Shown: piece by piece, positions 681 to 20,108 of the stretch
How positions within the stretch are numbered: position 1 is the stretch's first letter
Layout: the number at the start of each line of letters is the position of its first letter
Virus record (IMG/VR): IMGVR_UViG_3300044638_002652
Span: 1-21,191 of that record
Length of the DNA: 21,191 nt
Source of the DNA: a virus
Reading direction: 5' to 3' (one strand)
Translations under genes and position numbers: made by a program
Notes under the pieces: model-generated
The model's database searches: none
What the model was told of the DNA's origin: nothing
What the model saw: only the letters and a program-made list of their open reading frames with translations

Positions 681-1235
681 CTACGATGGTTTAAAGGGAT
701 TAACCTTTACTAATCTTATATGTTGTTTAATCTTTTTGACATTTAGAAAGGATGTTGATTTACTTATCCCTATATCTTTACTCAACTTATCCAATGTCAT
801 CTTATCATCACTAAAGAAATATAATTCAGCTAATCGTGCTGAACTCCACATCTTTGTTTTTTGTAGTTGTTGTATCTCATTTACTATTTCATCATAGCAT
901 TGCTGTACTTTGGTATCCATCTCCTCATTATATTCTTCATCTACTTCATCATAAGTGTCCGAAATGGTTTGTACCTTACCATTACTCTTTACCATATTAA
1001 TGTGACGTGTTCGTAAGAATGAATGAAGATACATCATATTGAAATCATCTACACCATACCATATATTAGGATTACCTCTTTCGGCAATGTAAGAGTAGAG
1101 TTCTGCAACTAATTCCTTAGCCATCTCTCTATTCTTTGTTATGTTGTATGAAGCGGACATCAACCAATCATTCTTAACTCTATAAAGAATATCAAGCCTT
1201 CTATTGTTTTCTCTTTGTATTTCTTCTATACTCAT
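681..1235 (-). CDS. Sigma-70-like (ECF-type) transcription factor
   Basis: A 184-residue protein whose layout matches a short two-domain sigma factor. Residues about 22-80 look like region 2: a helix with NREMAKELVAELYSYIAER, then a section ending FLRTRHINMVKSN, comparable to the core-binding and -10-recognition helices. An acidic linker follows (about 93-108). Residues about 146-172 (LDKLSKDIGISKSTSFLNV) look like a region 4 helix-turn-helix. Its start overlaps the stop of the preceding gene as TAATG, suggesting translational coupling. It lies just before the terminase genes. It could instead be a non-sigma HTH regulator. Together with the gene at 5881-6753 it would give the phage two sigma-type proteins. 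Confidence 0.6.
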   Translation of the reverse strand: MSIEEIQRENNRRLDILYRVKNDWLMSASYNITKNREMAKELVAELYSYIAERGNPNIWYGVDDFNMMYLHSFLRTRHINMVKSNGKVQTISDTYDEVDEEYNEEMDTKVQQCYDEIVNEIQQLQKTKMWSSARLAELYFFSDDKMTLDKLSKDIGISKSTSFLNVKKIKQHIRLVKVNPFKPS

Positions 1236-1462
1236 TAAATCCTATCACTTACAAATTTTCTCAGCTCATCAATACATCTTACCCATAATCCGCCTGATGA
1301 TTTACAGCTGCAAGGTTGTGGTTCTTTGTTACCTCTTATTTGTGTGCACCTACTCCACATCTTACCCATTAAGTGTTCGGGTAAATGCATTTTGATTGAT
1401 GATAGTTCTTCTTTCATTAGATTGAATTCTGATTCATTAAAGGGTGCGTATTTATTTTCCAT
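1235..1462 (-). CDS. Small Cys-containing phage protein, function unknown
   Basis: A 75-residue protein. The N-terminal half is acidic and helical; the C-terminal half carries Cys at roughly 39, 51, 53 and 63, with the stretch EPQPCSCKSSGGLWVRC. The four Cys could bind zinc, and the CSC-SSG-W pattern is one I associate with small proteins of Bacteroidota phages, but I do not know a function. It is separated by 1 nt from the gene above and overlaps the sigma-like gene below by 1 nt (TAATG), so it belongs to the same transcript and may be translationally coupled to that gene. Confidence 0.65.
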   Translation of the reverse strand: MENKYAPFNESEFNLMKEELSSIKMHLPEHLMGKMWSRCTQIRGNKEPQPCSCKSSGGLWVRCIDELRKFVSDRI

Positions 1463-1463
1463 A

Positions 1464-1640
1464 TTATCCTAATTGTGCTATTTGTTCTAATGGAGTATCT
1501 CTCCAAAATCTTTCTAAATCCTCTGCCATCTTTTGTTTAAGTTCATCGGTTATCTCTACATCTTTCAATCCTCCTATACTTTGTAAGAATTTGATATGTG
1601 CTTCTACTGAAGTTTCATTTCTTTGGTATGCTGTTTCCAT
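1464..1640 (-). CDS. Small hypothetical protein (58 aa)
   Basis: A 58-residue, acidic, probably helical protein containing WRDTPLEQIAQLG at its C-terminus. I chose the ATG at 1640 rather than an in-frame ATG 42 nt upstream: the downstream start gives a TAA-T-ATG junction with the preceding gene's stop, the same arrangement as at 3177/3175, whereas the longer form would overlap that gene by 41 nt. No recognisable domain. It is part of the tightly packed run 2197 to 681. Confidence 0.6.
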   Translation of the reverse strand: METAYQRNETSVEAHIKFLQSIGGLKDVEITDELKQKMAEDLERFWRDTPLEQIAQLG

Positions 1641-1641
1641 A

Positions 1642-1827
1642 TTAATATAATTTAATTCCTTCTTTACATCCACATAGTTCATTCAAATAGATTCTTCGTG
1701 CTTCACATCCGCAATCATCTAAGTTAAAGAATCGTTTAGCTATCCATCCTGCTAAATCTTTACCCCATCCTAATGTGATTACGTTTATTAATCCATCTAC
1801 TATGTTTCCCAATTTAATTATGCACAT
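1642..1827 (-). CDS. Small amphipathic protein with DCGC motif (61 aa)
   Basis: A 61-residue protein. Residues about 5-33 form a hydrophobic/amphipathic helix (IVDGLINVITLGWGKDLAGW); then comes NLDDCGCEARRIYLNELCGC. The pattern of a short amphipathic N-terminus, a D-C-G-C motif and a basic helix recurs in small proteins of Bacteroidota phages. Its role is unknown to me; a membrane-associated (holin-like) or small structural role is possible but not shown. The start overlaps the HNH gene by 14 nt. The four Cys could bind a metal or form disulfides. Confidence 0.6.
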   Translation of the reverse strand: MCIIKLGNIVDGLINVITLGWGKDLAGWIAKRFFNLDDCGCEARRIYLNELCGCKEGIKLY

Positions 1828-2197
1828 TTCTATTTGGTTTAGTTATTTGATGATAATGAATAAGATTTTCTGAACGAGTCATATACTCTAAGTTATCAGG
1901 CTTATTATTATGTTTGTCACCATCTTTGTGATTAACTTCTAATCCTTTAGGAATCTTACCTAAGAATGTTTCTGCTATCAAACGATGACCTCTTCTCCAT
2001 AATCTTTGTTTCTTAGGTCCAATACCTACGAATAATCCATAGTATAAATAACCTGATGGGTGAGTACGTGGTCTTAATACTCTTATTTCACCTTTAGGAT
2101 TGTATCTGTAAGATATCTTTGTTGTGTAGATTAATCCATCACTACCTGCATAGTAGTCAGGAAATCCTTTTAAATCTTTAATTTGAATTTTTGCCAT
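1814..2197 (-). CDS. HNH endonuclease with NUMOD4-like N-terminus
   Basis: A 127-residue protein. The N-terminus (about 7-26, KGFPDYYAGSDGLIYT) matches the NUMOD4 DNA-binding element; residues about 70-80 (GHRLIAETFLG) and 87-114 (VNHKDGDKHNNKPDNLEYMT) match the HNH_3 nuclease, with H90, the Asn residues and H114 as likely metal/catalytic positions. Proteins of this type are usually free-standing homing endonucleases that nick or cut DNA and spread their own gene; some phage HNH proteins instead assist terminase cleavage. The gene follows a strong terminator (2246-2281) and starts the run leading to terS and terL. It looks intact. Confidence 0.88.
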   Translation of the reverse strand: MAKIQIKDLKGFPDYYAGSDGLIYTTKISYRYNPKGEIRVLRPRTHPSGYLYYGLFVGIGPKKQRLWRRGHRLIAETFLGKIPKGLEVNHKDGDKHNNKPDNLEYMTRSENLIHYHQITKPNRNVHN

Positions 2198-2245
2198 TGT
2201 ATATTGTTTTGTGTTTATAAATATTAGTAGTTTAGAAAAGTGAGC

Positions 2246-2281
2246 ATAAAAAAGAGAGACTGGAAATGACGCCAGCCTCTC
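2246..2281 (-). terminator. Rho-independent terminator
   Basis: On the minus strand, GAGAG(G)CTGG pairs with CCAG(A)CTCTC around an 8-nt loop, followed by TTTTTTATGCTC. It ends the small-gene transcript coming from 5240-2375. The 12 bases from the U-tract onward are identical to those of the terminator at 19414-19444. Confidence 0.85.
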
Positions 2282-2369
2282 AAAATATAGAGTATGTTAG
2301 AGGAACAAATATAAAATGGCAGTTCCATATAAAAACCCCTAACTCTCTATAAATATTATAATCTACCAT
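2280..2369 (-). CDS. Possible 29-aa hydrophobic peptide
   Basis: A 29-codon frame starting 5 nt after the previous gene's stop and ending with TGA right against the terminator stem. The C-terminal 20 residues are strongly hydrophobic (LGVFIWNCHFIFVPLTYSIF), so a translated product would sit in the membrane. Hydrophobicity arises easily in AT-rich noncoding DNA, and the same stretch can fold as RNA (paired blocks between 2287 and 2350), so this may not be a gene. Confidence 0.22.
   Translation of the reverse strand: MVDYNIYRELGVFIWNCHFIFVPLTYSIF
2287..2350 (-). other. Potential multi-stem RNA structure before terminator
   Basis: Nested complementary blocks: ATAGAG (2287-2292) with CTCTAT (2345-2350), GTTAG (2296-2300) with CTAAC (2339-2343), and GGAAC (2302-2306) with GTTCC (2322-2326). 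Together they give a long interrupted hairpin just ahead of the terminator at 2246-2281. A TATATTTG resembling a -7 box lies at 2313-2306, but no TTTG is correctly spaced. Could be a 3' UTR stabiliser or chance. Confidence 0.35.
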
Positions 2370-2374
2370 TTAAA

Positions 2375-2524
2375 TTAATTATTTTCTGATAATCTTTGTG
2401 ATTCTTCTTCCTGCTTAACATAAGATTCAAATAGTTTCCCCCAGTCTAGGTTTGCAAAAACCCATTCAATTTCTTCTTTAGTTAATTTATCAAAAGGTTT
2501 CTTTAGTATTTCGTCTATATTCAT
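2375..2524 (-). CDS. Small acidic hypothetical protein (49 aa)
   Basis: A 49-residue frame beginning MNIDEILKKPFDKLTKEEIE and ending in a Glu/Gln-rich helix. It starts 1 nt after the TAA of the 118-aa gene, so it is very probably co-transcribed and perhaps coupled with it. Composition is acidic and helical with two Trp (WVFANLDWGKLF). No known domain recognised. The tight junction and protein-like composition support a real gene despite its size. Confidence 0.6.
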   Translation of the reverse strand: MNIDEILKKPFDKLTKEEIEWVFANLDWGKLFESYVKQEEESQRLSENN

Positions 2525-2525
2525 A

Positions 2526-2882
2526 TTATTTCTTTTTAGTTACTGTATTATTAATTAAATCTACTTTATATACCTGCCCAAATAGTTTTTCTATCTCTCT
2601 TTCTTTAACTTCTCTTTCAATTGGGTCTAAATCATATTTGCTTCCAAAATGATTATCAATCCATTTATTCATATCAATTCCTAATTTATTCTTTGAATCA
2701 TTCTGAACTTTAGCTTCTTTCTTAGCTTTGTCATTGTATAACCAATTATCAATGTGTTCTTGGATATCTAATGCTAAGTCTGCCGCATCTTCTATATCTA
2801 ATTCAATACTTGTTTCAGATTTACTGACGATGGTTAATATTATTTTATCTCCATCTTTCTTTACATAGAATTCGTTTGCCAT
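2526..2882 (-). CDS. Small acidic paralog-family protein (118 aa)
   Basis: The N-terminal 50 residues have the same plan as the two genes upstream: a polar start, beta strands (DKIILTIVSKSETSIELDI), then an acidic helix ending in an aromatic/leucine motif (LALDIQEHIDNWLYND). A charged extension of about 65 residues follows, ending IEKLFGQVYKVDLINNTVTK. Function unknown. It has its own host-type promoter (2904-2935) and is followed 1 nt later by the 49-aa gene. The shared plan suggests duplication and divergence of a small regulatory or host-takeover protein; that role is only inferred from its place in the early-looking block. Confidence 0.7.
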   Translation of the reverse strand: MANEFYVKKDGDKIILTIVSKSETSIELDIEDAADLALDIQEHIDNWLYNDKAKKEAKVQNDSKNKLGIDMNKWIDNHFGSKYDLDPIEREVKEREIEKLFGQVYKVDLINNTVTKKK

Positions 2883-2903
2883 ATTATATTGTTTATTGTT
2901 TTG

Positions 2904-2935
2904 TAAAGATACGAAATTTAATTGATATCATTAAA
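2904..2935 (-). promoter_or_regulatory. Host-type promoter (TTTA-N20-TATCTTTA)
   Basis: On the minus strand a TTTA -33 box (2935-2932) is followed after exactly 20 nt by TATCTTTA (2911-2904), close to the Bacteroidota consensus TTTG/TAnnTTTG. It reads into the 118-aa gene with a leader of roughly 15-20 nt. The -33 box lies within the last codons of the upstream 85-aa gene. Confidence 0.68.
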
Positions 2936-3175
2936 CATCTTATCAAAAGCATCCTTTATCTCTATATCTGAAAGAATTCTATCAGATACATTATTGTATT
3001 CCTGCTCCTTCAATTCATCGGGCCAATTGGATTCCTCCCAATTTAATTTGTCATCTTCATAATCAAATTGTAACCATACATTTAAATCATCTACTAATTG
3101 CTTTACATCTTCCCTATCTAGCTGAGAAGTAACAGTAATGAATACTCTATCTCTTTCTTTTTCTACTTTTATCAT
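2918..3175 (-). CDS. Small acidic paralog-family protein (85 aa)
   Basis: An 85-residue acidic protein beginning MIKVEKERDRVFITVTSQ: beta strands followed by the helix LDREDVKQLVDDLNVWLQF, then a Trp/Glu-rich tail. It resembles the 66-aa protein upstream (LTREDVIEMINDLQYYL) and the start of the 118-aa protein downstream. I chose the ATG at 3175 instead of an in-frame ATG at 3217: it gives a TAA-T-ATG junction with the preceding gene, and the longer form would add a hydrophobic segment without counterpart in the paralogs. Function unknown. Confidence 0.68.
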   Translation of the reverse strand: MIKVEKERDRVFITVTSQLDREDVKQLVDDLNVWLQFDYEDDKLNWEESNWPDELKEQEYNNVSDRILSDIEIKDAFDKMFNDIN

Positions 3176-3176
3176 A

Positions 3177-3377
3177 TTATTTTTTATTTTGGGAATCAAG
3201 ATAATACTGAAGGTCATTAATCATTTCAATTACATCTTCTCTAGTAAGTTCTAACTCAAAGTAACTAGTGTCTCTAATGTAATCAATTGGATTAATTGAA
3301 AAAATAAAAGTACCATCTGTTTTTGATACGATTTCTAATTCTGATTCATTGTCTTTGTAAACCTTTCTTGTTGCCAT
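3177..3377 (-). CDS. Small acidic paralog-family protein (66 aa)
   Basis: A 66-residue protein, MATRKVYKDNESELEIVSKT onward, with two or three predicted strands and a C-terminal helix containing ELTREDVIEMINDLQYYLD. It is the shortest, and may represent the core, of three tandem related proteins (3377 to 2526). Its promoter (3406-3437) and an A-rich leader containing ATAAATAAAAAACAAAATT precede the start. No Shine-Dalgarno is visible, as is common for Bacteroidota and their phages. Function unknown. Confidence 0.7.
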   Translation of the reverse strand: MATRKVYKDNESELEIVSKTDGTFIFSINPIDYIRDTSYFELELTREDVIEMINDLQYYLDSQNKK

Positions 3378-3405
3378 AATTTTGTTTTTTATTTATATGT
3401 TATTG

Positions 3406-3437
3406 TAAAGATACTAAATTTAGTCCAAACTACCAAA
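3406..3437 (-). promoter_or_regulatory. Host-type promoter (TTTG-N20-TATCTTTA)
   Basis: On the minus strand TTTG (3437-3434), exactly 20 nt, then TATCTTTA (3413-3406). It drives the paralog genes starting at 3377, giving a leader of about 20 nt. The -33 box lies immediately after the stop codon of the 105-aa gene. The -7 octamer is identical to those at 2904-2911 and, on the plus strand, 5825-5832. Confidence 0.78.
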
Positions 3438-3755
3438 TTATTTATTATTTATAGTCTTTCTTATTAATTTTAATTCTGACTCGTTTAATTGTATATTATT
3501 AACAACCCACTTTAGATACCAAATCGGTACTGAAGTTATATCAATTCCTTTATACTTTCCAACATTCATATAAGCTTGTTTACAATTAATAAAATTAGAA
3601 TTCTTTTCAATAGTTGAATTTAATCTTGGAAGCGTTTGACCTCTAACAGGTAATGGATTCCAACTTTTTGCTAACTCATCAACTTTTTTAGATTGCTCTA
3701 ATTTCTTTTTTTGTAATGCTTCTTTTCTTAATTTGTTTTTTTGTTTTAAATTCAT
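3438..3755 (-). CDS. GKYKG-domain protein (DUF3820 / ExoX C-terminal-like)
   Basis: A 105-residue protein with a Lys-rich helical N-terminus (NLKQKNKLRKEALQKKK) and a C-terminal domain of about 45 residues containing NVGKYKGIDITSVPIWYLKW. The GKYKG...P..YL.W pattern is that of the DUF3820/ExoX-like C-terminal family, small domains often attached to exonucleases or found alone in phages and thought to act with nucleic acids. No nuclease domain is present, so this is the stand-alone form. The ATG at 3755 is preferred over one at 3779, because it is followed directly by the basic helix and preceded by an A-rich leader; the longer form adds 8 residues. Confidence 0.65.
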   Translation of the reverse strand: MNLKQKNKLRKEALQKKKLEQSKKVDELAKSWNPLPVRGQTLPRLNSTIEKNSNFINCKQAYMNVGKYKGIDITSVPIWYLKWVVNNIQLNESELKLIRKTINNK

Positions 3756-3966
3756 ATTGTTATCGTTTAGACACAACATATCTATTAGGAAATTTTTTCA
3801 ATTTCTTCATAATACATACATTGTGTATTATATACCATATCTTAGAAAGTGCTAACAACAAACAACAACACACCTTCTTACCTTAATTTTTACGAGTAAG
3901 TTCCTTATCAGAGTGAGTTAGTTTTACCTGCCGGTGTTTATTGCCTCATTATACTAATTGGATGTT

Positions 3967-5487: not shown

Positions 5488-5796
5488 TTATTCTTTTATT
5501 GGTACACAATTAGGTACGATTCTCCCGTCTAATACTTTAGTGCCGATGGCTTCATATCCTTCCCAACATGCATCTTCTAATCCATCACCTTCGGCAAGTT
5601 TGATTCCTTTGTATTGAATCTCTCTTAATTTAGATGATATTAGATTTACTCCACTCATTCCAGTTTCTTTACGATATGTTTCATAGCATATAGCTGATGC
5701 TTGTTCTTGCTCATACCCAGCATTAATTTCTGCTGGTATGCAATAAGCTAGATATTCTTCTTGCGTTTCTCCTTTTTTTGGTTTGTCTACTGGCAT
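5488..5796 (-). CDS. Small head-associated protein, two Cys-containing motifs
   Basis: A 102-residue protein with two recognisable parts. Residues 1-45 (DKPKKGETQEEYLAYC...AICYETYRKE) match a short Cys-containing domain that I know from phage head proteins and proteases (typically KPKKGE...F..RC...AVCY..W). Residues about 74-101 (EDACWEGYEAIGTKVLDG, then VPNCVP) match another small phage domain usually found at the end of XkdF-like or head proteins. Four Cys are suitably placed for a metal site or disulfides. The gene is cut off from the virion block by the inverted sigma gene. No well-matched promoter was found for it; TAACTTTG at 5878-5871 lacks a -33 box. The biochemical role is unknown. 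Confidence 0.7.
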   Translation of the reverse strand: MPVDKPKKGETQEEYLAYCIPAEINAGYEQEQASAICYETYRKETGMSGVNLISSKLREIQYKGIKLAEGDGLEDACWEGYEAIGTKVLDGRIVPNCVPIKE

Positions 5797-5800
5797 ATTA

Positions 5801-5832
5801 TTTGGTTTTATGATATATTTTTAGTATCTTTA
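5801..5832 (+). promoter_or_regulatory. Host-type promoter of the sigma gene (TTTG-N20-TATCTTTA)
   Basis: On the plus strand TTTG (5801-5804), exactly 20 nt, TATCTTTA (5825-5832), the same -7 octamer as two minus-strand promoters. It gives a leader of about 43 nt before the ATG at 5881. The -33 box begins 5 nt beyond the start codon of the divergent 102-aa gene. Confidence 0.8.
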
Positions 5833-5835
5833 CAT

Positions 5836-5863
5836 TATAACAAACAAAAATCAATTTGTTATA
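5836..5863 (+). promoter_or_regulatory. Dyad at the sigma-gene transcription start
   Basis: TATAACAAA (5836-5844) and TTTGTTATA (5855-5863) are perfect 9-bp inverted repeats separated by 10 nt, covering the predicted transcription start. A further TTATAA lies at 5876-5881 over the start codon. It could be an operator, possibly for autoregulation, or a weak 5' hairpin in the mRNA. Confidence 0.5.
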
Positions 5864-5880
5864 CTATAAACAAAGTTATA

Positions 5881-6753
5881 ATGCCAAGAAAGAAATCTGC
5901 TGACAGCATTTCCAATTACTTCAATGATGAGGTGGAAGCAGCTATATTAAAATACAACACATCTACATCGCATAATGAAAAGGAAATCTTATTCAGATTA
6001 ATCTATCCTGCTCTACATAAGATAGCAGAAGTATTTTACAATAAGATTAAACCAGTCTATGTACAAATAGAACCATTAGATTTTCAAATGGATTGTACCG
6101 CATTCCTAGCTGATAAGTTACACTTCATTAAAGAGGGTAAAGGAAAAGCATTTTCATATATGACAGTAACTGCTAGGAACTTTTATATAGGAGCTAATAT
6201 GAAAGCATATAGTAAATTAAATAAGCATGTCACATTAGATTATGTGAATGAGGGTTGGGATATCAAAGATACAGTTAATGAAGATAGAGATAATAAAGAA
6301 ACAACCGAAGGTTTATTAAACGCATTTTGTGATTACTTAGAAACTAATAAATTAGAATTAACTAAAAATAAAGCCAGAAAAGGATTACCTATACTGAATG
6401 AAATAATAAGAATGATTAGAGAGATTGATGGTATAGAGGATATCAATCGTAGAATTATAATGAATAATTTAACCAACATAAATGGGTTAAAAATAGAAAG
6501 ACATTACATTACTGTAATATTCAATAGATTTCAGGCACACTATATTAAATTCAAAAAACATTGGTTAAAATATATAACTCAACTGCCATATATAGATAAA
6601 AAAGATTTAACTCAAGAAGAAATTGATTATTGTATTGAAAACTATAAAGAACATGATTGGCTATCAGGTCCAACTACATTTGCTAAAAAGTTTAATGTTG
6701 ATGAATATGTAGTAAGGAAAGAACTAAACAAAGCTGGTTTGTGTACTATCTAA
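5881..6753 (+). CDS. Phage sigma factor, gp55-like (probable late sigma)
   Basis: A 290-residue protein with start MPRKKSADSISNYFNDEVE. Residues about 35-120 resemble sigma region 2 as in T4 gp55: a helix (LIYPALHKIAEVFYNKI), the stretch DFQMDCTAFLADKLHFI, then EGKGKAFSYMTVTARNFYIG and NKHVTLD. The KGKAFSYMTVTARN segment is the most telling. The C-terminus (about 258-288, GPTTFAKKFNVDEYVVRKEL) looks like a helix-turn-helix, longer than in gp55. The ATG at 5881 is chosen because the promoter at 5801-5832 lies just upstream, so a longer in-frame form from 5761 would start before the promoter. It is the only plus-strand gene and converges on the 107-aa gene with an 8-nt overlap. It probably directs RNA polymerase to the virion genes; its target promoters are not identified. 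Confidence 0.72.
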   Translation: MPRKKSADSISNYFNDEVEAAILKYNTSTSHNEKEILFRLIYPALHKIAEVFYNKIKPVYVQIEPLDFQMDCTAFLADKLHFIKEGKGKAFSYMTVTARNFYIGANMKAYSKLNKHVTLDYVNEGWDIKDTVNEDRDNKETTEGLLNAFCDYLETNKLELTKNKARKGLPILNEIIRMIREIDGIEDINRRIIMNNLTNINGLKIERHYITVIFNRFQAHYIKFKKHWLKYITQLPYIDKKDLTQEEIDYCIENYKEHDWLSGPTTFAKKFNVDEYVVRKELNKAGLCTI

Positions 6754-7071: not shown

Positions 7072-8454
7072 TTATTCAGTTATAGGTCCACCTACTACCC
7101 ATGCTGCGCAAGTTCTACTTGCTGCACATTTAAAATCAAATGCTTCACAATAACCAATCTCACCAGCATTAATTGCTTCGTATGGGTCTACTTCTTGTCC
7201 TAATCCTTCTGCGATACATTTAAGTATTTCTGGAGTTCGGTAAAAGAATACACAGTTACCGCAAAGTGCTTTTTTTGCTTCTTCAACGTTTCCTTTGAAT
7301 TGGTCTGCTTTTGCTTTCCAATAGTCTTCGTTTGGTTCGTTTGGGTTAAGTGGCCCGTAGTTTGCTTCATCTATTGCTTTTTGTCTATTAGCTATGTTTA
7401 GTTTGATATCTTGCGTTGATTCAGGACATGTTGCAAAGTCCTGTAAGATTGGAGGAATATCTCCAGCTTTTAATTTCTTTTTATCTTCAGCTGCTTCACC
7501 AGGATAACTTGATGTTACCGATGGTTGTTCAGCTTCTTCTAATATACCTAACTCTTTTAATTTATTTCTACTCCAACTCAATGCTGATTTTCCACCCCAG
7601 AGCAAAAACGAAATCGTTCCGCATGCATTCATATCCGTTTCATCATAGTAAGTTTCAGCTCTACTCAAAAAAGAATACATTCTTTTAATTGTTTCAACTG
7701 ATATAGATTCACCATCTGCTAATTGTTGTGCACGAACTTTACCTGTTTGAGTAGCACATTTGTTACCATTCTTTTCGTTTAACTCTATACCTCTTTTAGC
7801 ATTATTCTTAATCTCATCACCATAATCAGCGTATGATTCAAACATTGCTTTAATCTTACTTAATACTAATTCAGCTTCAACTTCATTTAATTCATTAATA
7901 TCTTTTAGTAAATAATTCTCTTTAGATGCTTCTACTAACTGATGGGAAAATAAACCTTCAATCGAGAACCCTGTTAATTTTCCTGTTTTTACAAAATCTT
8001 GCCACAACTTTTCGTTGTTCACTTTCATTGTACCAGCCCAAGTTCCTGGCGCTAATGATAATCCATATACTGCTGATTTATCTTTTGTTCTACTCTCTAC
8101 TATCCAACTCTCAACTAATGATACATCTGAAATTGATTTTTTATGTTCAACAGTTACCTTATCAGTATATTTGTTTTGTAAGTATTTCTCACTTAATTTC
8201 TTAATAGTAGGTGCAGATAAGAATACGTGATATGGTTTACCTTCACCATCTATGCGAAGTATTCTTTTATCTGGCACCAATATAGGTCCTAAGACCAATC
8301 TTTTATCGTTATCTACTGCTTGAAATTGAATTTGCTCTTTATCAAACGCTACCCAACCCGCTTCAATAGCCGGCTCAGATACCATTGAGATTGCATAAAC
8401 CTCATCTTCTTCTCCTTCAATTATAAGTTCGTAAACTAAATCTTCGTTTATCAT
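7072..8454 (-). CDS. XkdF-like head maturation serine protease with C-terminal six-Cys domain
   Basis: A 460-residue protein in three parts. Residues 1-170 match the XkdF family (Peptidase_S78_2): the family start DEVYAISMVSEPAIEAGWVAF (positions 17-37), likely catalytic His104 in VTVEHKK and Ser164 in LTGFSIEG. Residues about 215-305 form a second helical domain (TGKVRAQQLADGES...IKRMYSFLSR) common in phage head proteins. Residues 398-449 hold six Cys (398, 401, 413, 436, 443, 449) with a CxxC start and an ending TCAAWVVGGP, resembling small Fe-S (HiPIP-like) or disulfide-knot domains. Such proteases normally trim capsid and scaffold proteins and lie next to the capsid gene; here the gene follows the tape measure gene, far from the capsid gene at 21 kb. 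Confidence 0.78.
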   Translation of the reverse strand: MINEDLVYELIIEGEEDEVYAISMVSEPAIEAGWVAFDKEQIQFQAVDNDKRLVLGPILVPDKRILRIDGEGKPYHVFLSAPTIKKLSEKYLQNKYTDKVTVEHKKSISDVSLVESWIVESRTKDKSAVYGLSLAPGTWAGTMKVNNEKLWQDFVKTGKLTGFSIEGLFSHQLVEASKENYLLKDINELNEVEAELVLSKIKAMFESYADYGDEIKNNAKRGIELNEKNGNKCATQTGKVRAQQLADGESISVETIKRMYSFLSRAETYYDETDMNACGTISFLLWGGKSALSWSRNKLKELGILEEAEQPSVTSSYPGEAAEDKKKLKAGDIPPILQDFATCPESTQDIKLNIANRQKAIDEANYGPLNPNEPNEDYWKAKADQFKGNVEEAKKALCGNCVFFYRTPEILKCIAEGLGQEVDPYEAINAGEIGYCEAFDFKCAASRTCAAWVVGGPITE

Positions 8455-8502
8455 AATGTTTTAACAATTTAATGTCAGTTTTTATTGATATATATTTATA
8501 TA

Positions 8503-10299
8503 TTAGTATCCACCGAATGTTGCTGCGTTTGATGTTCTTCTATCCAAGGCCTGCTGGCTGGAGACGTCCCCGGCGACAACATAAGCCTTTGTAGGCTTAC
8601 CAGTTGTTGCTGCTAATGTACCTGCGATTTGTGCGCCAGGTGATGCCGCTTGTGTTCCACCTATTTGTGGTGCTGGCGTACCTGCTACCGTTGGTGCAGT
8701 TGGTGCTGGTGGTAAAGATGCTCCACTACTAGTTGCAGATGTTGCATTATCACTACTATTAATTTGTGATATTGATTTAGCTGCTCCTGCTATTGTAGAT
8801 GCTATACCCAATGCTGCTGATATTGTATTAATAGTAACCCAAGGTTGTCCTGCAGTCAATGGAAATGCTGCTACTGATTTAGCGTTAGCTACTGCAGTAT
8901 TTGCTACAATCTTTCCAATTGCTGCTGCCTGTTCTACTACGATACCAGCGATTGCTAATTTTTTATTCTTTCCAGCTATTTGTTGTAAGAATGAACCGAA
9001 CTGTCCAACTAAATCTAATTGAGCATTTTGTAATTCAGCTTTAGCATCCAACTCAGCCATATCAATTTGCTTCCTTGCATCTGCAGCTCCTTTAGCAATT
9101 GCTGTTCTTTGATTTTCAGTTAAATCTTTTTCACTTAAAAGGATTTGTTCTTTCTCATTTATTAATGCTCTCCTTTGGTCATAGGTCATAGCATCAAACT
9201 CTAATTGAGTATCTACCCCTAATAAATCATCTTCTCTTTTCTTATTTACTTTTTCCTTTTCTTTTTCAGCATCTGCTTTATCCTTCTCTGCTTTTTCTTT
9301 CTTAGCTTCTTCTAGCTTCTTAGCTTCCTCATCATCGTATTTCTTATTGATTGCTGCTACTTCTATTCTACCTTGTTCTAATACTGCGGATTTATCTTTA
9401 ATACCAGCTTTTTCTAATGCTAATAATCTTTCGTTTTGTTTTAATCCAGCATTGTATATCTCTTGGTCTCTTTGAGTTAGAGTTGCAACGTATGCTTCAG
9501 TTTGTACTTTGTTTGCTGCTTCTAAATTCTTTGCAGCTTCTTCTTCTTGCTTCTTACGTTTTTCAGCGGCCTTTTGAGCATTTTCTAAACGTTTCTTTTG
9601 TTGTTCTTCTTGCTTCTTAGTTAGTTCCTCTTGTCTTTTCGTCTCAGCTTCGTTAGCTTTTTGTTGAACCTCATCTACTGATAAAGTTGCTTCTTTAATT
9701 TTAGATTCTGAAATACCTAAGAACTTAGCAAACTTTTGGAAACCCAATGCAACTTTTTCTAATACGAATGCAAATCCATTAAATAGGGGAACTGCCACTT
9801 TCTCAACAATTGCAAGAATAGGTCCTAATATGCCACTAAATGCTTGTGATAATCTATTAAGAGTTTGTTGGCCTTCAGCAGTTGAACCTAATGCTTTCTT
9901 CATTAACAACAAACCACCAGCCACAGCAGCAATAACTGCAATGATTGGGTTTGCTATAAGAACTTTGAATGCTCCATCTAATGCTTTCATTGCATTACCG
10001 GCTGCGCCTGCAGGTCCAGGTAAAGATGCTAATTGGTCATCAAATTGTTTTGCTTGAAATTGAACCTTTTCTAATCCTTCTTCCAAATCATCCAATTGTG
10101 CTCTTAACTTATTGAACTTTACTTTATCGCCAGCAGCTGCTGCTTCCTGTAAATCCTTTTGAGTTTTACGAATCTGCAATTGTAGTTTGACAAACGAACC
10201 GGCTGTTTCTTCGGCCTTTTCGCCCAAGTCTCCTATTTCTTCCGCACCCTTTACTTGGGTATCAATGATTGCGGTGTATGTGGTTGTATTATCAGCCAT
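8503..10299 (-). CDS. Tape measure protein
   Basis: A 598-residue protein that would set tail length and form the channel for DNA ejection. Layout: N-terminal coiled coil (about 38-92), a hydrophobic segment typical of tape measures (FKVLIANPIIAVIAAVAGGL, 111-130), a second apolar stretch to about 190, a very charged Lys/Glu/Ala coiled coil (about 205-375), a second hydrophobic section (about 440-510) and an Ala/Pro/Thr/Gly-rich C-terminus. At roughly 0.15 nm per residue this would give a tail of about 90 nm, consistent with a siphovirus-like particle; no sheath gene is visible. Its start overlaps the 51-aa gene by 1 nt (TAATG). It lies downstream of the tail-tip genes, the reverse of the usual order. 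Confidence 0.88.
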   Translation of the reverse strand: MADNTTTYTAIIDTQVKGAEEIGDLGEKAEETAGSFVKLQLQIRKTQKDLQEAAAAGDKVKFNKLRAQLDDLEEGLEKVQFQAKQFDDQLASLPGPAGAAGNAMKALDGAFKVLIANPIIAVIAAVAGGLLLMKKALGSTAEGQQTLNRLSQAFSGILGPILAIVEKVAVPLFNGFAFVLEKVALGFQKFAKFLGISESKIKEATLSVDEVQQKANEAETKRQEELTKKQEEQQKKRLENAQKAAEKRKKQEEEAAKNLEAANKVQTEAYVATLTQRDQEIYNAGLKQNERLLALEKAGIKDKSAVLEQGRIEVAAINKKYDDEEAKKLEEAKKEKAEKDKADAEKEKEKVNKKREDDLLGVDTQLEFDAMTYDQRRALINEKEQILLSEKDLTENQRTAIAKGAADARKQIDMAELDAKAELQNAQLDLVGQFGSFLQQIAGKNKKLAIAGIVVEQAAAIGKIVANTAVANAKSVAAFPLTAGQPWVTINTISAALGIASTIAGAAKSISQINSSDNATSATSSGASLPPAPTAPTVAGTPAPQIGGTQAASPGAQIAGTLAATTGKPTKAYVVAGDVSSQQALDRRTSNAATFGGY

Positions 10300-10454
10300 T
10301 ATTTTTTACTTTTCCAGATTCTTTTTAATAACAATTTTGCTTCATTTATAGATTGAGGATATTTGTATTTACCTTTGGCAATATCAATATCTTCGTTCTC
10401 TCCATAAAATTCTCCTAAGTTCAATAAATCAATTACAGTCTTTATCATATCCAT
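10299..10454 (-). CDS. Small protein upstream of the tape measure gene (51 aa)
   Basis: A 51-residue frame beginning MDMIKTVIDLLNLGEFYGEN and ending in the basic helix LLLKRIWKSKK. Its TAA overlaps the tape measure ATG (TAATG), which strongly suggests a translated, coupled gene. Its position is that of tail assembly chaperones, but it is much shorter than those and has no visible slippery frameshift site. I do not recognise the family. Confidence 0.62.
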   Translation of the reverse strand: MDMIKTVIDLLNLGEFYGENEDIDIAKGKYKYPQSINEAKLLLKRIWKSKK

Positions 10455-10479
10455 TTAACAGTTTTGTTTGGTTTTGTGA

Positions 10480-11079
10480 TTAAGGGTTCAATTGGAACAA
10501 AATCATACACTTATCGTTATAATGAGGGTATCCTTCCTGGCAATCTTCGTTTATTAAATAAATTGGATTTAACTGAAAAGGAGGTATCATTAGATTTATA
10601 CATTTCCAACCACCATCTTCTATATCAGGGTTCATATCCCACTTAGTAAAGGATGTAGCCAGGAGGTATTTTGCACCACTCTCCTGACAGTTTCTTATAG
10701 CCTTTGATACATTATCATTACTTAGGTGTCCTAAACAATCTCTTGTGAATATAAGGTCTACTTTTGGTAGTGTATCATTGATTAAATCTAACACTCTAAA
10801 ATCAATATTTGTATAATTTGCTTTGTTTAATCCTATTAATGGTTCTACTATATCTGCTCCTATATAAGAAGCTCCACATAAATCTACATCTTTCATCCAA
10901 TTCCAATCTCCGCAAGGGATATCTAAAATAGATGTGATACCAAACTTTTGTATTAATATAGGTAATTCTCTACGAATCACTTTTGTATTTTGCATTTCAC
11001 TCCCACCACCACTTACACTTTCAGGTGAACACCATAGATTCTTTTCGTAAATCTCTGTAAACTTTTCTTTTACACTCAT
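10480..11079 (-). CDS. Class I SAM-dependent methyltransferase
   Basis: A 199-residue protein with a clear Rossmann methyltransferase core. Motif I is LDIPCGDWNW (52-61), the SAM-ribose acidic residue is D76 in YIGADIV, and motif IV/post-IV is DLIFTRDCLGHL (108-119). The N-terminus (LWCSPESVSGGGSEM) and the GGWKCINLMIPPFQLNP segment belong to a methyltransferase family found in phages and cyanobacteria, often beside glycosyltransferases. The substrate is not evident; a sugar hydroxyl is plausible. It overlaps the glycosyltransferase gene by 4 nt (ATGA), so the two are translationally coupled and probably act in one pathway. Length is normal for the family. Confidence 0.85.
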   Translation of the reverse strand: MSVKEKFTEIYEKNLWCSPESVSGGGSEMQNTKVIRRELPILIQKFGITSILDIPCGDWNWMKDVDLCGASYIGADIVEPLIGLNKANYTNIDFRVLDLINDTLPKVDLIFTRDCLGHLSNDNVSKAIRNCQESGAKYLLATSFTKWDMNPDIEDGGWKCINLMIPPFQLNPIYLINEDCQEGYPHYNDKCMILFQLNP

Positions 11080-12011
11080 AACAATATTGTTTTTTTAGCT
11101 GTTTCTTTTACTTGCTCCCAATAGTAGATACTTGCTCTATGCTCATCTAATATTAATTCATCACCATAAGGTAATCTATTAATGTAAGATGCTTTGTGAA
11201 ACATTCCACTATTAGCATCCATTACTCCAGCGTTATGTAATATCCAATATTTTTCAATTGATTTTTCATTATCAGTACTCCATCCAAATGCCATTCTATC
11301 ATCAACTTGTGTAGGATGTCCTGATAACCATGCATTCCATAACAAACTCCACATACCTGCTGTCCATTTTTGTATTGCATAATCCCAATCAGCTTTTGGA
11401 ATGTGTAAATGTTCTACTGAATTAAAATAAGAATACATTTTAATTGCATCCTTTTCTACCTTATCCCAAAACTCAAATCCCTCTCCCTTAATTAAATACT
11501 GAGCACCACCTGAATGGTTATTCATTAACTTAGGAATTAATTTATCTATACCAATTATATTACACATATCTTCATATATGTGGTTGCCTTTTTGTTGTAT
11601 GTAATCATAGTTGATGTAAGAGTTAGTATCACTCATATACCATGTGTTATTATTTCTAACCCAATCTAATTCAGGAGGACGAGTAAATACAATATCACTA
11701 TCATGCAAAAATAACCATTCATCTTTCAAAGCAGGATATGCTTTAAGATGTTGTTTCATTAAGTTAAAATAGATTGATGGGATATAAGAGTAATCTTCTC
11801 TAGTATCCTCATAAAAAAAGAAACGAACGGTATTGTAATGAGATTGAAGTTTCTTCCAATCATCAGGTACATGCCCATTGTTTATTGCACCCAATATATC
11901 AATCTGATTTGGGTTTACTCCATGCTTTATGAAGTTATTAATTAGTACCTCAATCTGCCATCTATAATAATCGTTGGCCGGTTGAGCACATATAAATCGT
12001 GTTTGTTGCAT
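11076..12011 (-). CDS. GT-A type glycosyltransferase
   Basis: A 311-residue protein. Near residues 99-110, WLFLHDSDIVFTRPPE contains the DxD-type motif DSD (104-106) that binds a divalent metal and the sugar nucleotide in GT-A glycosyltransferases. Further features are NNHSGGAQYLIKGEGFEFW (164-182), typical of the acceptor-side loop, and a C-terminal ILHNAGV (257-263) whose His may be a metal ligand. The overall shape resembles hydroxyproline O-glycosyltransferase-like enzymes. No signal peptide or membrane segment is present, so it should act in the cytoplasm. It starts 12 nt after the Thr/Ser-rich tail protein gene and overlaps the methyltransferase. Donor and acceptor are not known. Confidence 0.82.
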   Translation of the reverse strand: MQQTRFICAQPANDYYRWQIEVLINNFIKHGVNPNQIDILGAINNGHVPDDWKKLQSHYNTVRFFFYEDTREDYSYIPSIYFNLMKQHLKAYPALKDEWLFLHDSDIVFTRPPELDWVRNNNTWYMSDTNSYINYDYIQQKGNHIYEDMCNIIGIDKLIPKLMNNHSGGAQYLIKGEGFEFWDKVEKDAIKMYSYFNSVEHLHIPKADWDYAIQKWTAGMWSLLWNAWLSGHPTQVDDRMAFGWSTDNEKSIEKYWILHNAGVMDANSGMFHKASYINRLPYGDELILDEHRASIYYWEQVKETAKKTILL

Positions 12012-12023
12012 AACATTTTATTT

Positions 12024-13010
12024 TTATAAACATCCTCCATCACAAGATGCAAATGTATTCAAAGTCAGTGTACTACCTATATCACCACTTACTACTGTAT
12101 ATGTTCCTGTGGTTAATGATACACCTGCATTATTAGCACAATTTGCATCAGTTATTATATTTCCAGTTGTATAAACATTTGCGTATGTATCAGGTGAGCC
12201 ACATGCAGTTACTATTTGTAGTTCTACATAAATTGTATCACCAACATATACAGTTCTAGTCCCACTTGCTGTACTACTTCTGCTTTCAACAGCAAAACCA
12301 TTTACATATAAATCCATAGTTCCATTTGCTCCACCTGTTTCACTATAACTCCATGCTAAAGTAGCATTACCAGCTGTTGTAGTAGTTGTTGAAGTTGTAG
12401 TAGAAGTTGTAGAAGTACTGGTTGTGGTAGTTGTACTTGTAGTAGAAGTTGTACTTGTGGTTGTTGTTGTTGGGGCAACAGGTTCAACAAATGGTAAAGC
12501 ATCCGGTAATATAGGTCCAAGCAATTGTATTGCACATTGTCCATTCTTCAAATTATAATCATTAATCGCACGAAGATGATAGTAGTTACCTCTAAATTGT
12601 ACTACATCATTTAATTCCATCTTAAAATAATCTGCTAAGGGAATGATTGCTGAAGCGTTCAACAATCTAGTGCGTGGATTATAGAGTAACTCAACATAAG
12701 TTTCCCAATAATCATTATATAACGAATTGGTTGGAACTTCACCATATACAGCTGCTTCATTAAAAAACAATAATGATTTAGAATCAGTTGTAGGAAATGA
12801 ACCTGATACTACATTGTAGTTATCAAAATAAGGAAATGCAAATTGTTCTTTTGCTGTTGCCGCGGGTGATGCGGATGAACCGCTATCAAAATACCAAGGT
12901 TGGCATCCAAGCATTCCATTATAAAATAATAATCTTGGTAGCACTCTAGACGGATTGTATGTTGCGTCTGAAATGTAAGTTGGTATGTATATAGGTATTG
13001 ATTGTGACAT
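12024..13010 (-). CDS. Tail-tip/adhesin protein with Thr/Ser linker
   Basis: A 328-residue protein in three parts. Residues 1-175 look like the C-terminal half of Bacteroidota-phage tail-tip proteins (LYNDYWETYVELLYNPRTRL, then NYYHLRAINDYNLKNGQC). Residues 181-212 are an unbroken Thr/Ser run. Residues 213-328 look like a beta-sandwich (Ig-like) domain with Cys pairs, ending CDGGCL, probably for receptor binding. Such linkers separate a virion-anchored part from an exposed host-binding domain. It starts 12 nt after the 665-aa tail gene. The Thr/Ser run and its gene neighbours suggest glycosylation, which is inference. Confidence 0.65.
   Translation of the reverse strand: MSQSIPIYIPTYISDATYNPSRVLPRLLFYNGMLGCQPWYFDSGSSASPAATAKEQFAFPYFDNYNVVSGSFPTTDSKSLLFFNEAAVYGEVPTNSLYNDYWETYVELLYNPRTRLLNASAIIPLADYFKMELNDVVQFRGNYYHLRAINDYNLKNGQCAIQLLGPILPDALPFVEPVAPTTTTTSTTSTTSTTTTTSTSTTSTTTSTTTTTAGNATLAWSYSETGGANGTMDLYVNGFAVESRSSTASGTRTVYVGDTIYVELQIVTACGSPDTYANVYTTGNIITDANCANNAGVSLTTGTYTVVSGDIGSTLTLNTFASCDGGCL
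12375..12470 (-). repeat. Thr/Ser codon low-complexity tract
   Basis: A 96-nt tract of ACN/TCN/AGT codons encoding 32 consecutive Thr or Ser residues. The near-repeat DNA could lengthen or shorten by slippage or recombination without breaking the frame in steps of 3 nt, changing linker length. Confidence 0.85.
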
Positions 13011-13021
13011 ATAATTTTATT

Positions 13022-15019
13022 TTAACAGAAAAATCCAGTTCCATATCCTATTACTCCAGCAGTAATTGGGTAAATTTCTAAAGATGAAGGGTCAACAACG
13101 AAATTATAATTAGTAACAATATCTGCTCCATATCTGTCATAGTACAATGTTTCTCCTTGAAGAATCTGACCTGATACAGTATATACATCATAGTTTTGAT
13201 ATATTCCACATGTACTAGGAGGAGCTGCAGTTGATAATCTAGCATTACCAACATAAAATGCATTTATAGGTGGATTTAATCCCTGTACCGAACCTGATAA
13301 ACCAGTTCCAGATATTTGTAATAAAGGAGATGATGCTAAAGTTGTTTTAACTTCAAACTTACCTTGTGAGAAAAAGTTTTGAGTATCTACATAATATGTT
13401 TTACCATACTCTCTATTTGCTGCTTTACTAAATTGTTGAGAAATATAGTCTTGGTCTAATGAATCACCAAAGTTAAGTTCATTTACAGCTAAATTATTAG
13501 CTGGAATTACTTCTATCTTCTCATCTAAGTTTATGTATTTGTTGAAATCTTTTATCTCACCTTGTTGATACCATGTGTTAAATGTTTCAACTATAAATTC
13601 ATTTCTTTGAGTTTTAGATGGATATATTACTAAGTTAAATTTCTTTTGAATTCCTTTAATAAAATCAATTAACTTAATACCAGTAGTACCAAATGGCATA
13701 TTAGTCATCATATCCATAATCCTACCATCAGCTGCCTGTTTTACTTCCGTTATTTGTAAATAAGATTTAGTTGTTCCTAAAGGGTCTAATGTTACCTTTG
13801 GTAAAGCACCTGTTGTAACATTAGGTCTTTGTTTTAATTGAAAATAATAATTACCAGGAGGTATATCATCCATTAAAAATTCAGTTTGTAATTGATATGT
13901 TGTATTAATTCCACCACTTCTACTTTGTTGTAATTGGTCAAAGAAAAATATATAAGATTGTATTGCACGAAGTGAATAAGGTGTAGAACTGCCTGTTTCT
14001 ATCATTTGTATCTGCCATGTTCCATTTGCAGATAAAGTACCTGGCATATTATTTGCCGAACAACTTACATTTAGATTTACATTTAATATACCTGATAGGT
14101 TAGTTCTTTCTTTAACTTCGTATGCACCATTGTTATAAAATCCCTGAGGGTCTGATAATGCGTTAAACCAAGGTAGTGTAACAAATGTATTTGCTGTCAA
14201 AACCACATCGGTCATCCCACTTCCAGATATTGCACCTACTTTTATTTTACCATATCCTTCTAAATCAACACCTGAAAATTCAGGATATTTTAATGAGTTA
14301 TTACCTAATAAATAAACATCATCTAAGAATGGCTCATTAAAGAATGAACTTGTATAAGTGTATCCAGCATATTCAAATATTGCATCCCATACTTTTTTCA
14401 TACGGATTGCAGGCTTAAAGTTTTGTACTGTTAATGAACCATTTATATCATCCATACCAAACAATTCATATTGGCCTGATGTGTATTTGTATCCACTACC
14501 ATAATCAGCTAAAGGATAAACTACATCACCATTAAATAAATTACCACTCCAACTTGCTGAAATGTTTTCAAAAGATGCTGTGTGGTTGTATTTGTCTAAT
14601 GTAGTTAATTGAGTAAGGTATGTATTTGTGATTGTTTTAGCAAAAGAAGATATTGCTCCAAAGATACTTACTTCGTATGAATCAATAAACTTATTAGCTA
14701 TTACATTTACTTTATTTAATTGTAGGTATCCTTGCGAAATATAGATACCATCAAAATCTAAGTAACAAGGTACTTTAATATTTGTAGCAAATGTATCAGG
14801 ATTGAAAATACTAATATCATATACGTGTTCAAAGAATGCGTTATTCTTTTTTGTACCAGGCAAAGAAATCTGACGAGTAAAATCAGCGGGAATAACACCC
14901 AAGTCAAAAAGACCTGTAACGTTATCCGATAACTTTATTTCTTCATCAGCAAAAAGGTCTAAGATTTCACCATTTGCCACTAGTTTGAAAATAAAACCTT
15001 GCGTTGTAACTACTCCCAT
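13022..15019 (-). CDS. Tail-tip / baseplate structural protein (665 aa)
   Basis: A 665-residue, beta-rich protein without signal peptide. The N-terminal region (DFTRQISLPGTKKNNAFFEH, followed by PCYLDFDGIYISQGYLQLNK) matches the start of tail-tip proteins I know from Bacteroidota phages. Residues about 440-560 (FGTTGIKLIDFIKGIQKKFN, NELNFGDSLDQDYISQQFSK) fit the middle of the same family. The last 70 residues, between STCGIYQNYDVYTV and the final FFC, resemble a small Cys-bounded repeat domain of tail adhesins. Its start overlaps the previous gene by 1 nt (TAATG). Together with the next gene it may be one ancestral protein split in two. It probably forms the tail hub or distal-tail region. 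Confidence 0.65.
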   Translation of the reverse strand: MGVVTTQGFIFKLVANGEILDLFADEEIKLSDNVTGLFDLGVIPADFTRQISLPGTKKNNAFFEHVYDISIFNPDTFATNIKVPCYLDFDGIYISQGYLQLNKVNVIANKFIDSYEVSIFGAISSFAKTITNTYLTQLTTLDKYNHTASFENISASWSGNLFNGDVVYPLADYGSGYKYTSGQYELFGMDDINGSLTVQNFKPAIRMKKVWDAIFEYAGYTYTSSFFNEPFLDDVYLLGNNSLKYPEFSGVDLEGYGKIKVGAISGSGMTDVVLTANTFVTLPWFNALSDPQGFYNNGAYEVKERTNLSGILNVNLNVSCSANNMPGTLSANGTWQIQMIETGSSTPYSLRAIQSYIFFFDQLQQSRSGGINTTYQLQTEFLMDDIPPGNYYFQLKQRPNVTTGALPKVTLDPLGTTKSYLQITEVKQAADGRIMDMMTNMPFGTTGIKLIDFIKGIQKKFNLVIYPSKTQRNEFIVETFNTWYQQGEIKDFNKYINLDEKIEVIPANNLAVNELNFGDSLDQDYISQQFSKAANREYGKTYYVDTQNFFSQGKFEVKTTLASSPLLQISGTGLSGSVQGLNPPINAFYVGNARLSTAAPPSTCGIYQNYDVYTVSGQILQGETLYYDRYGADIVTNYNFVVDPSSLEIYPITAGVIGYGTGFFC

Positions 15020-16185
15020 TATATAATTAATTTATAAGATTGTCCCCAATCAAAATCAAATGCGTATTGTACTAACTTATCGTTTACACCTGTTTTGAAT
15101 GTAACCGAATCAGTTCTAATTGTAATAGGTCTTACTGTTTCAGTTGTTGATGTTTGTTCATATACCCAATAGATTTCATCTGCTACTAACAATTGTTTTA
15201 ATATATTATTGTAATCATCATCCATATAGTCAGAATTAACACTTAGTGTTTGCTTACTATCTGAAAGATAATTTAAGTTAGAGCTATCATAATTTTGATA
15301 AGATAAACCAGTACCTTGCCACGTTCCTAATTGTGGTTGATATGTTCTTTTAGTAGATTGGAATGATTGTCTATTAACTAAATAAAAGTTAAAGTAATCA
15401 AATTGTCCATATCTATTTTTCCATTTGATTCTTACATTAGGATATTTTTGTAAACAAACATCTGTAAAATTAATAGAAGAACCCAATGCAGTTGAACCAG
15501 AATAAGCCTGTACACTAAATGTGTCCGTTAATATGTTTAATGGAAAATCACTACATAAAGGTCCAATAGGAAAATATTGTGTTTGTTGTGAAGATGATAT
15601 TGAGCTACTTACGTTAATTGAAGCATTACCTAACGAACCTGAATAAACCATTCGAGTTGGTTGTGATGTTCCAACATCGCCAGTATAAACTGTCATCCAC
15701 CCGTTAGTTTCATCTAAGAAAGATTGAGAAACAGGTCCATCACTCATTATAGGCCAATGAACTGATTTAGATACAATTTGTTGATTGATTGGTTCTTGAA
15801 ATATAGCGTATCCATCTAATGCTTTGTATGCTGAACTTGATACATGTGAACCTGTAATAAAGTTTGTTCCATCTTGATATTGCCAATAGAAATCTACTGA
15901 ATAGTATTTAACATTTGAAGTATTTGCAAATGCCAAATCAGTAAGTGTAGAATTCATTATTCTACTAACATCAAATATTCCACGTAGGGAATCGTTTGGA
16001 TATTTCGTAAGTACATATTCAGGTACTGCAGGTTTTGCATTAGCTGAACCAGTCCAATAATACAAATCAGCGTAATACTGAAATGATGAACTATATACAA
16101 CTGCAGTATTTTCAAACACAGTAAACGCCATTGGCGATTGTGCTAAAGATGCTGTTGCTGGATATTGAGTTATATTCAAAGCCAT
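15019..16185 (-). CDS. Tail structural protein (388 aa)
   Basis: A 388-residue, beta-rich protein with many Ser, Tyr and Asn and no signal peptide or catalytic motif. It begins with NITQYPATASLAQSPMAFTV, a start seen in structural proteins of uncultured phages, and contains several YxVDFYW/FNFYLVNRQSF-type strands. The end DFDWGQSYKLII abuts the 665-aa gene through TAATG. Position between the gp10-like protein and the tail tip suggests a distal-tail or tail-tube-associated part. The precise role is unknown. Confidence 0.62.
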   Translation of the reverse strand: MALNITQYPATASLAQSPMAFTVFENTAVVYSSSFQYYADLYYWTGSANAKPAVPEYVLTKYPNDSLRGIFDVSRIMNSTLTDLAFANTSNVKYYSVDFYWQYQDGTNFITGSHVSSSAYKALDGYAIFQEPINQQIVSKSVHWPIMSDGPVSQSFLDETNGWMTVYTGDVGTSQPTRMVYSGSLGNASINVSSSISSSQQTQYFPIGPLCSDFPLNILTDTFSVQAYSGSTALGSSINFTDVCLQKYPNVRIKWKNRYGQFDYFNFYLVNRQSFQSTKRTYQPQLGTWQGTGLSYQNYDSSNLNYLSDSKQTLSVNSDYMDDDYNNILKQLLVADEIYWVYEQTSTTETVRPITIRTDSVTFKTGVNDKLVQYAFDFDWGQSYKLII

Positions 16186-16203
16186 AGTAATCTTTTATCT
16201 TTT

Positions 16204-16220
16204 AACCAACAAAATTGGTT
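16204..16220. other. Small intercistronic hairpin
   Basis: AACCAA (16204-16209) and TTGGTT (16215-16220) pair around 5 nt, 19 nt upstream of the 388-aa start. No U-tract follows on the minus strand. It may influence translation of that gene; the evidence is thin. Confidence 0.3.
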
Positions 16221-16233
16221 TTGTATTGGATGG

Positions 16234-17165: not shown

Positions 17166-17170
17166 ATAAT

Positions 17171-17689: not shown

Positions 17690-17701
17690 TGTATTTAGTT
17701 T

Positions 17702-18970: not shown

Positions 18971-18971
18971 A

Positions 18972-19346: not shown

Positions 19347-19413
19347 TAGGTTGTCTTTATATTGTGTTTATCTATACATTTAACAATCATTGCTAATAAT
19401 ATAGTGAAAGAGC

Positions 19414-19444: not shown

Positions 19445-19467
19445 AATATTTTAAAGCGATATACTGA

Positions 19468-20019: not shown

Positions 20020-20064
20020 GTTGATTAAGTTTTATTTTTTTAATTTTGTTCTGAAACTATTATG

Positions 20065-20098: not shown

Positions 20099-20108
20099 TA
20101 CTCAAATA

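Follow-up and report, generated by a model that had tools for sequence, protein, structure and literature searches.

Small phage proteins that exchange heads and tails, and their possible link to replication

Results

Three small ORFs at one end of a viral genome fragment

Two questions are raised by three small adjacent ORFs in a virus record: whether they are copies of one another, and what their products might do. The record is 21,191 bases long, was analyzed whole, and is called the window here. Larger genes form a long run on its minus strand (7072-21062), and small genes, mostly on the minus strand, cluster at the low end. The sole listed plus-strand ORF of more than 110 aa (5761-6753, 330 aa) matched nothing in Pfam at E = 0.1 or in PHROG at E = 0.01. 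A 317-aa protein (20109-21062) is 30% identical to a protein of the Nonlabens phages P12024S/L that is annotated only as hypothetical; "capsid protein" is our own label for it. Persicivirga, the host given for P12024S/L, resolves to Nonlabens, a member of the Flavobacteriia. Scans of bacterial genomes with the B-type family (see below) and the 20109-21062 protein as queries confirmed no relative, so the host was assigned by kinship to P12024S/L, and our guess is that the virus is a tailed phage of Flavobacteriia. These phages resemble the window in the 317-aa protein, but the phage collection as a whole gave no convincing relative of the three small proteins. Megablast of the window against this collection gave no match, and tblastn gave none for C118, one match each at E = 0.7 for B85 and A66, and no convincing relatives for the headed proteins of the related loci L027 and L044. 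Whole proteins, families, and tails served as queries in the scans that found the related loci.

The three ORFs are real and all lie on the minus strand, as the sequence-only reading had placed them. A66 (3177-3377, 66 aa) is a free-standing head. B85 (2918-3175, 85 aa) is a chimera of a head (3069-3175, residues 1 to ~35) and an acidic, docking-type tail (2918-3068), and C118 (2526-2882, 118 aa) joins a head (residues 1-48) to a tail. The mechanically called B85 ORF opens at 3217; its most likely start is the ATG at 3175, one base past the A66 stop, and the gap between the two genes is 1 nt. The variable block is followed by a 49-aa minus-strand ORF (2375-2524) with counterparts of 49-63 aa after the headed gene in most relatives read (missing in L003, L044, L046, and L070), and by a minus-strand HNH endonuclease gene (1814-2197; PF13392, E = 2e-17). 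A minus-strand ORF of 113 aa (3438-3779) precedes A66 and has a weak PF12843 match (E = 0.0012) below the cut-off.

The three proteins share a head

Pairwise BLASTP, run without composition correction, aligned B85 with C118 at E = 2e-4 (99 columns, 23% identity), A66 with B85 at E = 8e-4 (18 helix residues), and A66 with C118 at E = 0.006. The profile-profile comparison proposed in the sequence-only reading linked the B family to the C family with a probability of 98.8 (E = 8e-17) and A66 to the B family with a probability of 81.5 (E = 1e-5, 21 helix columns). A66 reached 50.9 against a head set led by B85 and only 35 against the C family. A head HMM was built from 23 sequences that included B85 and C118 and left out A66, and it was searched against the window's stop-to-stop segments of at least 40 aa, which were distinguished by frame length. 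B85 scored 65.1 bits, C118 55.7, and A66 25.1, and the next-best segment scored 5.1; only these three were above threshold. None of 20,000 shuffles of A66 reached its score (best shuffle, 18.8). The comparisons argue strongly for a common ancestry of the B85 and C118 heads and moderately for the inclusion of A66. The aromatic-leucine pair described earlier at the end of the helix is present in all three (YL, WL, and WL).

Family searches gave the proteins no name. Their best PHROG match was at E = 0.065, which is not significant, and the best PHROG match of the L011 relative (E = 0.0024) is a family of unknown function. Family profiles recognized no initiator domain in A66, B85, or C118, no RHH-annotated family matched the window proteins at E <= 1, and no PUR or PC4 family or chain was listed for them by sequence profile. 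Sequence searches of the PDB returned nothing below E = 0.1; the best was AvtR for L003 at 0.12. Pfam matches of A66 to WapI (E = 0.037) and of B85 to Neur_chan_LBD (E = 0.012) fell below the curated cut-offs and were rejected.

The predicted head is a small sheet followed by a helix

AlphaFold2 modeled A66 as strand-strand-strand-helix at modest confidence (mean pLDDT 72.6, 2 alignment rows), with strands at residues 3-8, 12-18, and 24-30 and a helix at 46-64. The start of C118 was modeled with the same order of elements, also at modest confidence (mean pLDDT 63.9, 18 rows), and its long helix spans residues 30-82, followed by short C-terminal strands; residues 82-103 have pLDDT below 50. The third strand is missing from B-type heads in the head alignment. 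The term beta-helix, used in the sequence-only reading, is the wrong word for three strands followed by a helix, and unrelated folds, the outcome that would have spoken against kinship, were not seen; the A66 and C118 models start alike.

Among the best 50 structural matches of the C118 model were PUR repeats (Z = 3.2-4.5, rmsd 1.6-2.5, 48-53 residues aligned) and PC4 (Z = 3.4-3.6), outranked by COMM domains and coiled coils (Z up to 6.1). Matches with Z below 8 may reflect a common arrangement only, and these rows are too weak to name a family for the modeled C118 head. Pur-alpha was the top row for the A66 model, but with Z = 3.0 and an rmsd of 7.3. Foldseek against the PDB gave no match with E < 1, and a viral structure library gave none below E = 0.02.

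B85 is a mosaic with a crossover at the head-tail border

Positions 1001-3068 of the window are identical to contig L007 at 2,067 of 2,068 positions, and the similarity then ends. The breakpoint (3068/3069) falls in codon 36 of B85, right behind the Trp-Leu that ends the head, and the near-identical stretch takes in the B85 tail. In L007 this tail (98% protein identity) is the end of a different gene (972-1331) whose product, beginning MNNQDLFEKYL, has an additional FDKMF motif of its own. In the place of the 113-aa ORF, A66, and the B85 head, L007 has a MAKRFT ORF and the front of the FDxxF ORF.

On the other side of the breakpoint, the B85 head is 78-86% identical to its nearest heads, in L009, L027, and L032. 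Alignments of L009, L010, and L025-L031, several of them near-copies of one another, start exactly at 3068 on the head side, with 72-83% nucleotide identity over the head; for L008, L011, L012, L023, L024, L032, and L033 the alignment start lies somewhere from 3031 to 3092. Contig L005 has the same chimeric arrangement, 97.7% identical across the junction, which makes an assembly error unlikely. These alignments show B85 to be a recent mosaic formed by a crossover at its head-tail junction. The sequence-only reading had described the three genes as tandem paralogs. Kinship through the head stands, whereas local tandem duplication does not: the nearest heads of B85 lie in other phages, at 78-86% identity compared with 23% over 99 columns to C118, and recombination gave B85 a tail that is part of another gene in L007. 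Module shuffling is the main source of the diversity.

HNH-like ORFs also lie downstream in relatives, and HNH-like genes adjoin the variable block in the window (1814-2197), L003 (5563-6096), L025 (4658-5233), and L072 (2291-2986). Extra ORFs beside the block in L025 and L072 presumably resemble GIY-YIG nucleases. The HNH gene of the window is a possible driver of module exchange. Two stretches of ~60 nt, one before C118 (2858-2920) and one before the HNH gene (2175-2234), are 75% alike and could be cassette-exchange sites.

Related loci carry other combinations of heads and tails

One slot in each related locus encodes a headed protein. The table of proteins compared lists 34 entries: the three window proteins, the A66 of L003, and 30 proteins that relatives encode in the slot. 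Their heads were sorted under our own letters into A66-like, B, C, D (MLEVKKTN), and E (MGINLTKG) types and an Arc-like RHH type that matches phrog_3180 (L003, 2.5e-5; L044, 1.3e-7; L046, 1.1e-3). Homologous tails in the relatives are found on four variants of the head or on the Arc-like head, and sequence comparison shows that an Arc-like RHH domain can replace the head on a homologous tail. A single gene of L017 combines a C head with a B85-like tail and a C tail, L040 joins a C-like head to a B-like tail, and L072 has a tail without a head. In L072 and L073 this headless fragment (2986-3228) forms a direct fusion with the small ORF that usually lies downstream. The sheet-plus-helix head itself comes in three settings: free-standing in A66, joined to an acidic tail that ends in FDKMF in B85, and joined to a long-helix tail in C118. 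Most B-type genes (13 of 15) have their start no more than 4 nt ahead of, or 7 nt past, the point where the preceding ORF ends.

The slot often lies downstream of initiator-type genes

Genes upstream of the slot were read at 27 loci, the window and 26 relatives, with near-identical contigs counted once. An initiator-type ORF lies just upstream in 17. Eight belong to the MAKRFT family (L007, L008, L011, L018, L023, L032, L046, and L056), three are of HTH type (L012, phrog_4707 at 7e-17, with L017 and L057 grouped with it by eye), two are of Lin1244 type (L025 and L070; phrog_2562 at 1.5e-32 and 7.6e-31, and Lin1244_N at 9.4e-15 for L070), and two are DUF1376-like or primosomal (L062, phrog_3992, primosomal, at 7.8e-6; L044, phrog_9327 at 5.9e-7), with DUF1376 matches that score below the curated Pfam cut-off. 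The remaining two (L010 and L065) have DUF6291, a family of unknown function that was counted as initiator-type. For the MAKRFT family, no annotated match went below E = 0.008, and a relative in Pseudanabaena phage Pan5 has no name; we infer its initiator-type role from its position.

The ten loci without such a gene are the window, L003, L015, L026, L027, L033, L040, L066, L067, and L072. Family profiles recognized no initiator among the genes adjoining A66, B85, and C118, nor in the fragmentary contigs of the two lineages with A66 whose genes were read (window/L001 and L003). In both lineages A66 stands directly before the headed gene, in the place that a small FDxxF ORF takes in relatives; that ORF precedes the headed gene in 14 of the 17 initiator-type loci. 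In L015 (4508-4996), L033 (2959-3453), L044 (2331-2831), and L066 (1175-1669), the headed gene is preceded by an ORF of 162-166 aa, separated from it in L066 by a 49-aa ORF. These ORFs look similar by eye, and PHROG gave no match for those of L015 and L044.

An FDxxF C terminus is common to some initiator-type ORFs and B85

B85 has FDKMF near its C terminus (2933-2947, minus strand, counted from the translation). The motif F[DN]x[IMVL]F was sought in 449 distinct ORFs of at least 45 aa from the window's transcribed strand and the plus strand of the loci. Of the 26 ORFs that have it, 25 carry it in their last 25 residues; 200 rounds of shuffling the last 25 residues gave a mean of 0.39 and a maximum of 3. 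Motif and locus counts include related contigs and do not represent independent events. The motif is carried by B85, by initiator-type ORFs from three families (MAKRFT, DUF1376-like, and Lin1244-type), by the small ORF that precedes the slot, and by another small ORF of L007. Among the 17 initiator-type ORFs, nine have the motif (L007, L008, L011, L023, L032, L046, L056, L062, and L070; for example L062 2146-2661, L070 165-767, and L046 171-695) and eight do not (L010, L012, L017, L018, L025, L044, L057, and L065). MAKRFT members make up 8 of the 17 and 7 of the nine bearers. The ORF sequences show an FDxxF C terminus recurring on initiator-type proteins of different families. The likeness extends further in DFKPKYSEEEFDKVFND of L062, DFKPILSTEEFDSVFND of L070, and EFKPIMTEEEFDKIFGSLE of a small ORF of L057. 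Because these tails share more than the motif, they were probably handed on by recombination. A literature search for FDxxF together with phage found nothing.

Promoter-like elements, selection, and charge

The promoter-like element meant here has the form TATCTTTAC. It precedes A66 as AAATTTAGTATCTTTACAA (3403-3421, minus strand), with TTTG 20 nt ahead of TATC, and C118 as AAATTTCGTATCTTTACAA (2901-2919, minus strand). Within the 70 nt upstream of the gene, the element is present for 2 of 2 A66-like genes, 4 of 7 C genes (C/B included), and 4 of 4 D genes, and for none of the B (15), E (2), RHH (3), or headless (1) genes; in L015 and L018 it sits before the preceding ORF instead. An exact search for TTTG-N18-22-TANNTTTG gave 5 matches in the window, against an expectation of 1.2; none lies ahead of A66 or C118 on the minus strand, and the search was set aside.

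Diversifying selection, proposed earlier for these genes, finds no support in the substitution ratios, which were below 1 throughout. The dN/dS of C118 was 0.16-0.32 in four of four comparisons (heads, 0.08-0.20), that of the B85 head against three relatives was 0.12, 0.19, and 0.59, and three pairs of relatives' headed proteins gave 0.10, 0.14, and 0.49. The sole informative pair for A66 gave 0.76 from 3 synonymous and 10 non-synonymous changes, and 13 changes are too few to tell. Net charge is -6 for A66 and -13 for B85, and -6, -2, and -8 for the heads of A66, B85, and C118. PADLOC, a collection of defense proteins and hence a weak test of anti-defense, gave no match at E <= 1 for the three proteins and a weak AbiEi match for the L011 relative (E = 0.0045).

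Discussion

We tentatively favor the reading that the three genes encode modular accessory proteins of phage replication with a dimerizing head and a docking tail; resting on sequence comparison, it falls somewhat short of an even chance, and our confidence was lowered because the assignment of the MAKRFT family is weak. The genes would belong to a set of small modular proteins that relatives encode beside initiator-type replication genes. RHH domains form dimers, and by analogy the head may do so or may bind a partner, with the tail docking the protein onto a replication component. B85 may reach the same partner as the C termini of the initiators, which could be the helicase, a helicase loader, or another part of the replisome. 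Docked proteins would then help or limit assembly of the phage replisome, and A66, as a free head, could pair or compete with the headed proteins. A bolder extension is possible but doubtful: a C-terminal docking code, in its longest form like FKPxxSxEEFDxVF, would pass between three initiator-type families and small adaptors by recombination, initiators and adaptors would be exchangeable on one replisome hub of host or phage origin, and B85 and C118 would be interchangeable adaptors or brakes.

The chief competitor to the accessory-protein reading is the role in host takeover or anti-defense put forward in the sequence-only reading. Small early proteins, some perhaps DNA mimics, would lie beside replication genes by chance, and head swaps would redirect them to different host targets. 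The small size and strong acidity of A66 and B85 (net -6 and -13), the promoter-like element ahead of both A66 and C118, and the variation in gene content at the slot among otherwise near-identical phages all suit such a role. The lack of a PADLOC match for the window proteins, beside the single AbiEi match of L011, speaks against it, as do the initiator-type neighbors at 17 of 27 loci, the FDxxF tail common to them, and the dN/dS values below 1. We consider it unlikely, and an anti-defense role for the window proteins has no support here. Transcription regulators of the replication or early operon, with dimeric operator-binding heads and regulatory tails, would likewise account for the element before A66 and C118 and for the homologous tails that bear an Arc-like head in L003, L044, and L046. 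The heads are acidic, however, strongly in A66 and C118 and mildly in B85, the tail motif of B85 is common to initiator-type ORFs, and the window proteins match no regulator-annotated family, so that this role is quite improbable.

Accessory single-stranded DNA-binding proteins with PUR- or PC4-like domains would fit the replication context, the strands-then-helix order, and the weak PUR and PC4 rows for C118 and Pur-alpha row for A66. The strand count of PUR and PC4 exceeds that of C118 and B85, and B-type heads lack even the third strand. With Z below 8, higher-ranking COMM domains and coiled coils, no Foldseek PDB match at E < 1, no sequence match, and acidic heads, we hold this explanation to be very improbable. 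The Arc-like RHH repressors of phrog_3180 resemble the head in the place that they take on homologous tails (L003, L044, and L046), but the window heads match no RHH family and the A66 and C118 models are rich in strands.

Recently emerged domain mosaicism is described for phage replication proteins, replication initiation proteins among them, in the part of one report drawn on here (PMC10684548), and the likeness to our case is recent domain shuffling. The difference from what that part describes is that the proteins here are very small, lack a significant PHROG match, and have a crossover placed to the base. The portion used of a second report (PMC10448857) describes nuclease genes near essential genes and at exchange boundaries, together with domain swapping. 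The HNH gene (1814-2197) beside the shuffled block is the point of likeness, and its position fits both accounts, as far as these portions go.

Domain shuffling, known in phage replication proteins, is seen here in very small proteins. Heads and tails are shuffled in proteins of ~85-135 residues, the crossover lies at the domain border, and an Arc-like domain can take the place of the head. Should the FDxxF motif serve for docking, it would single out the protein by which these phages begin replication, and a short peptide would make that question testable.
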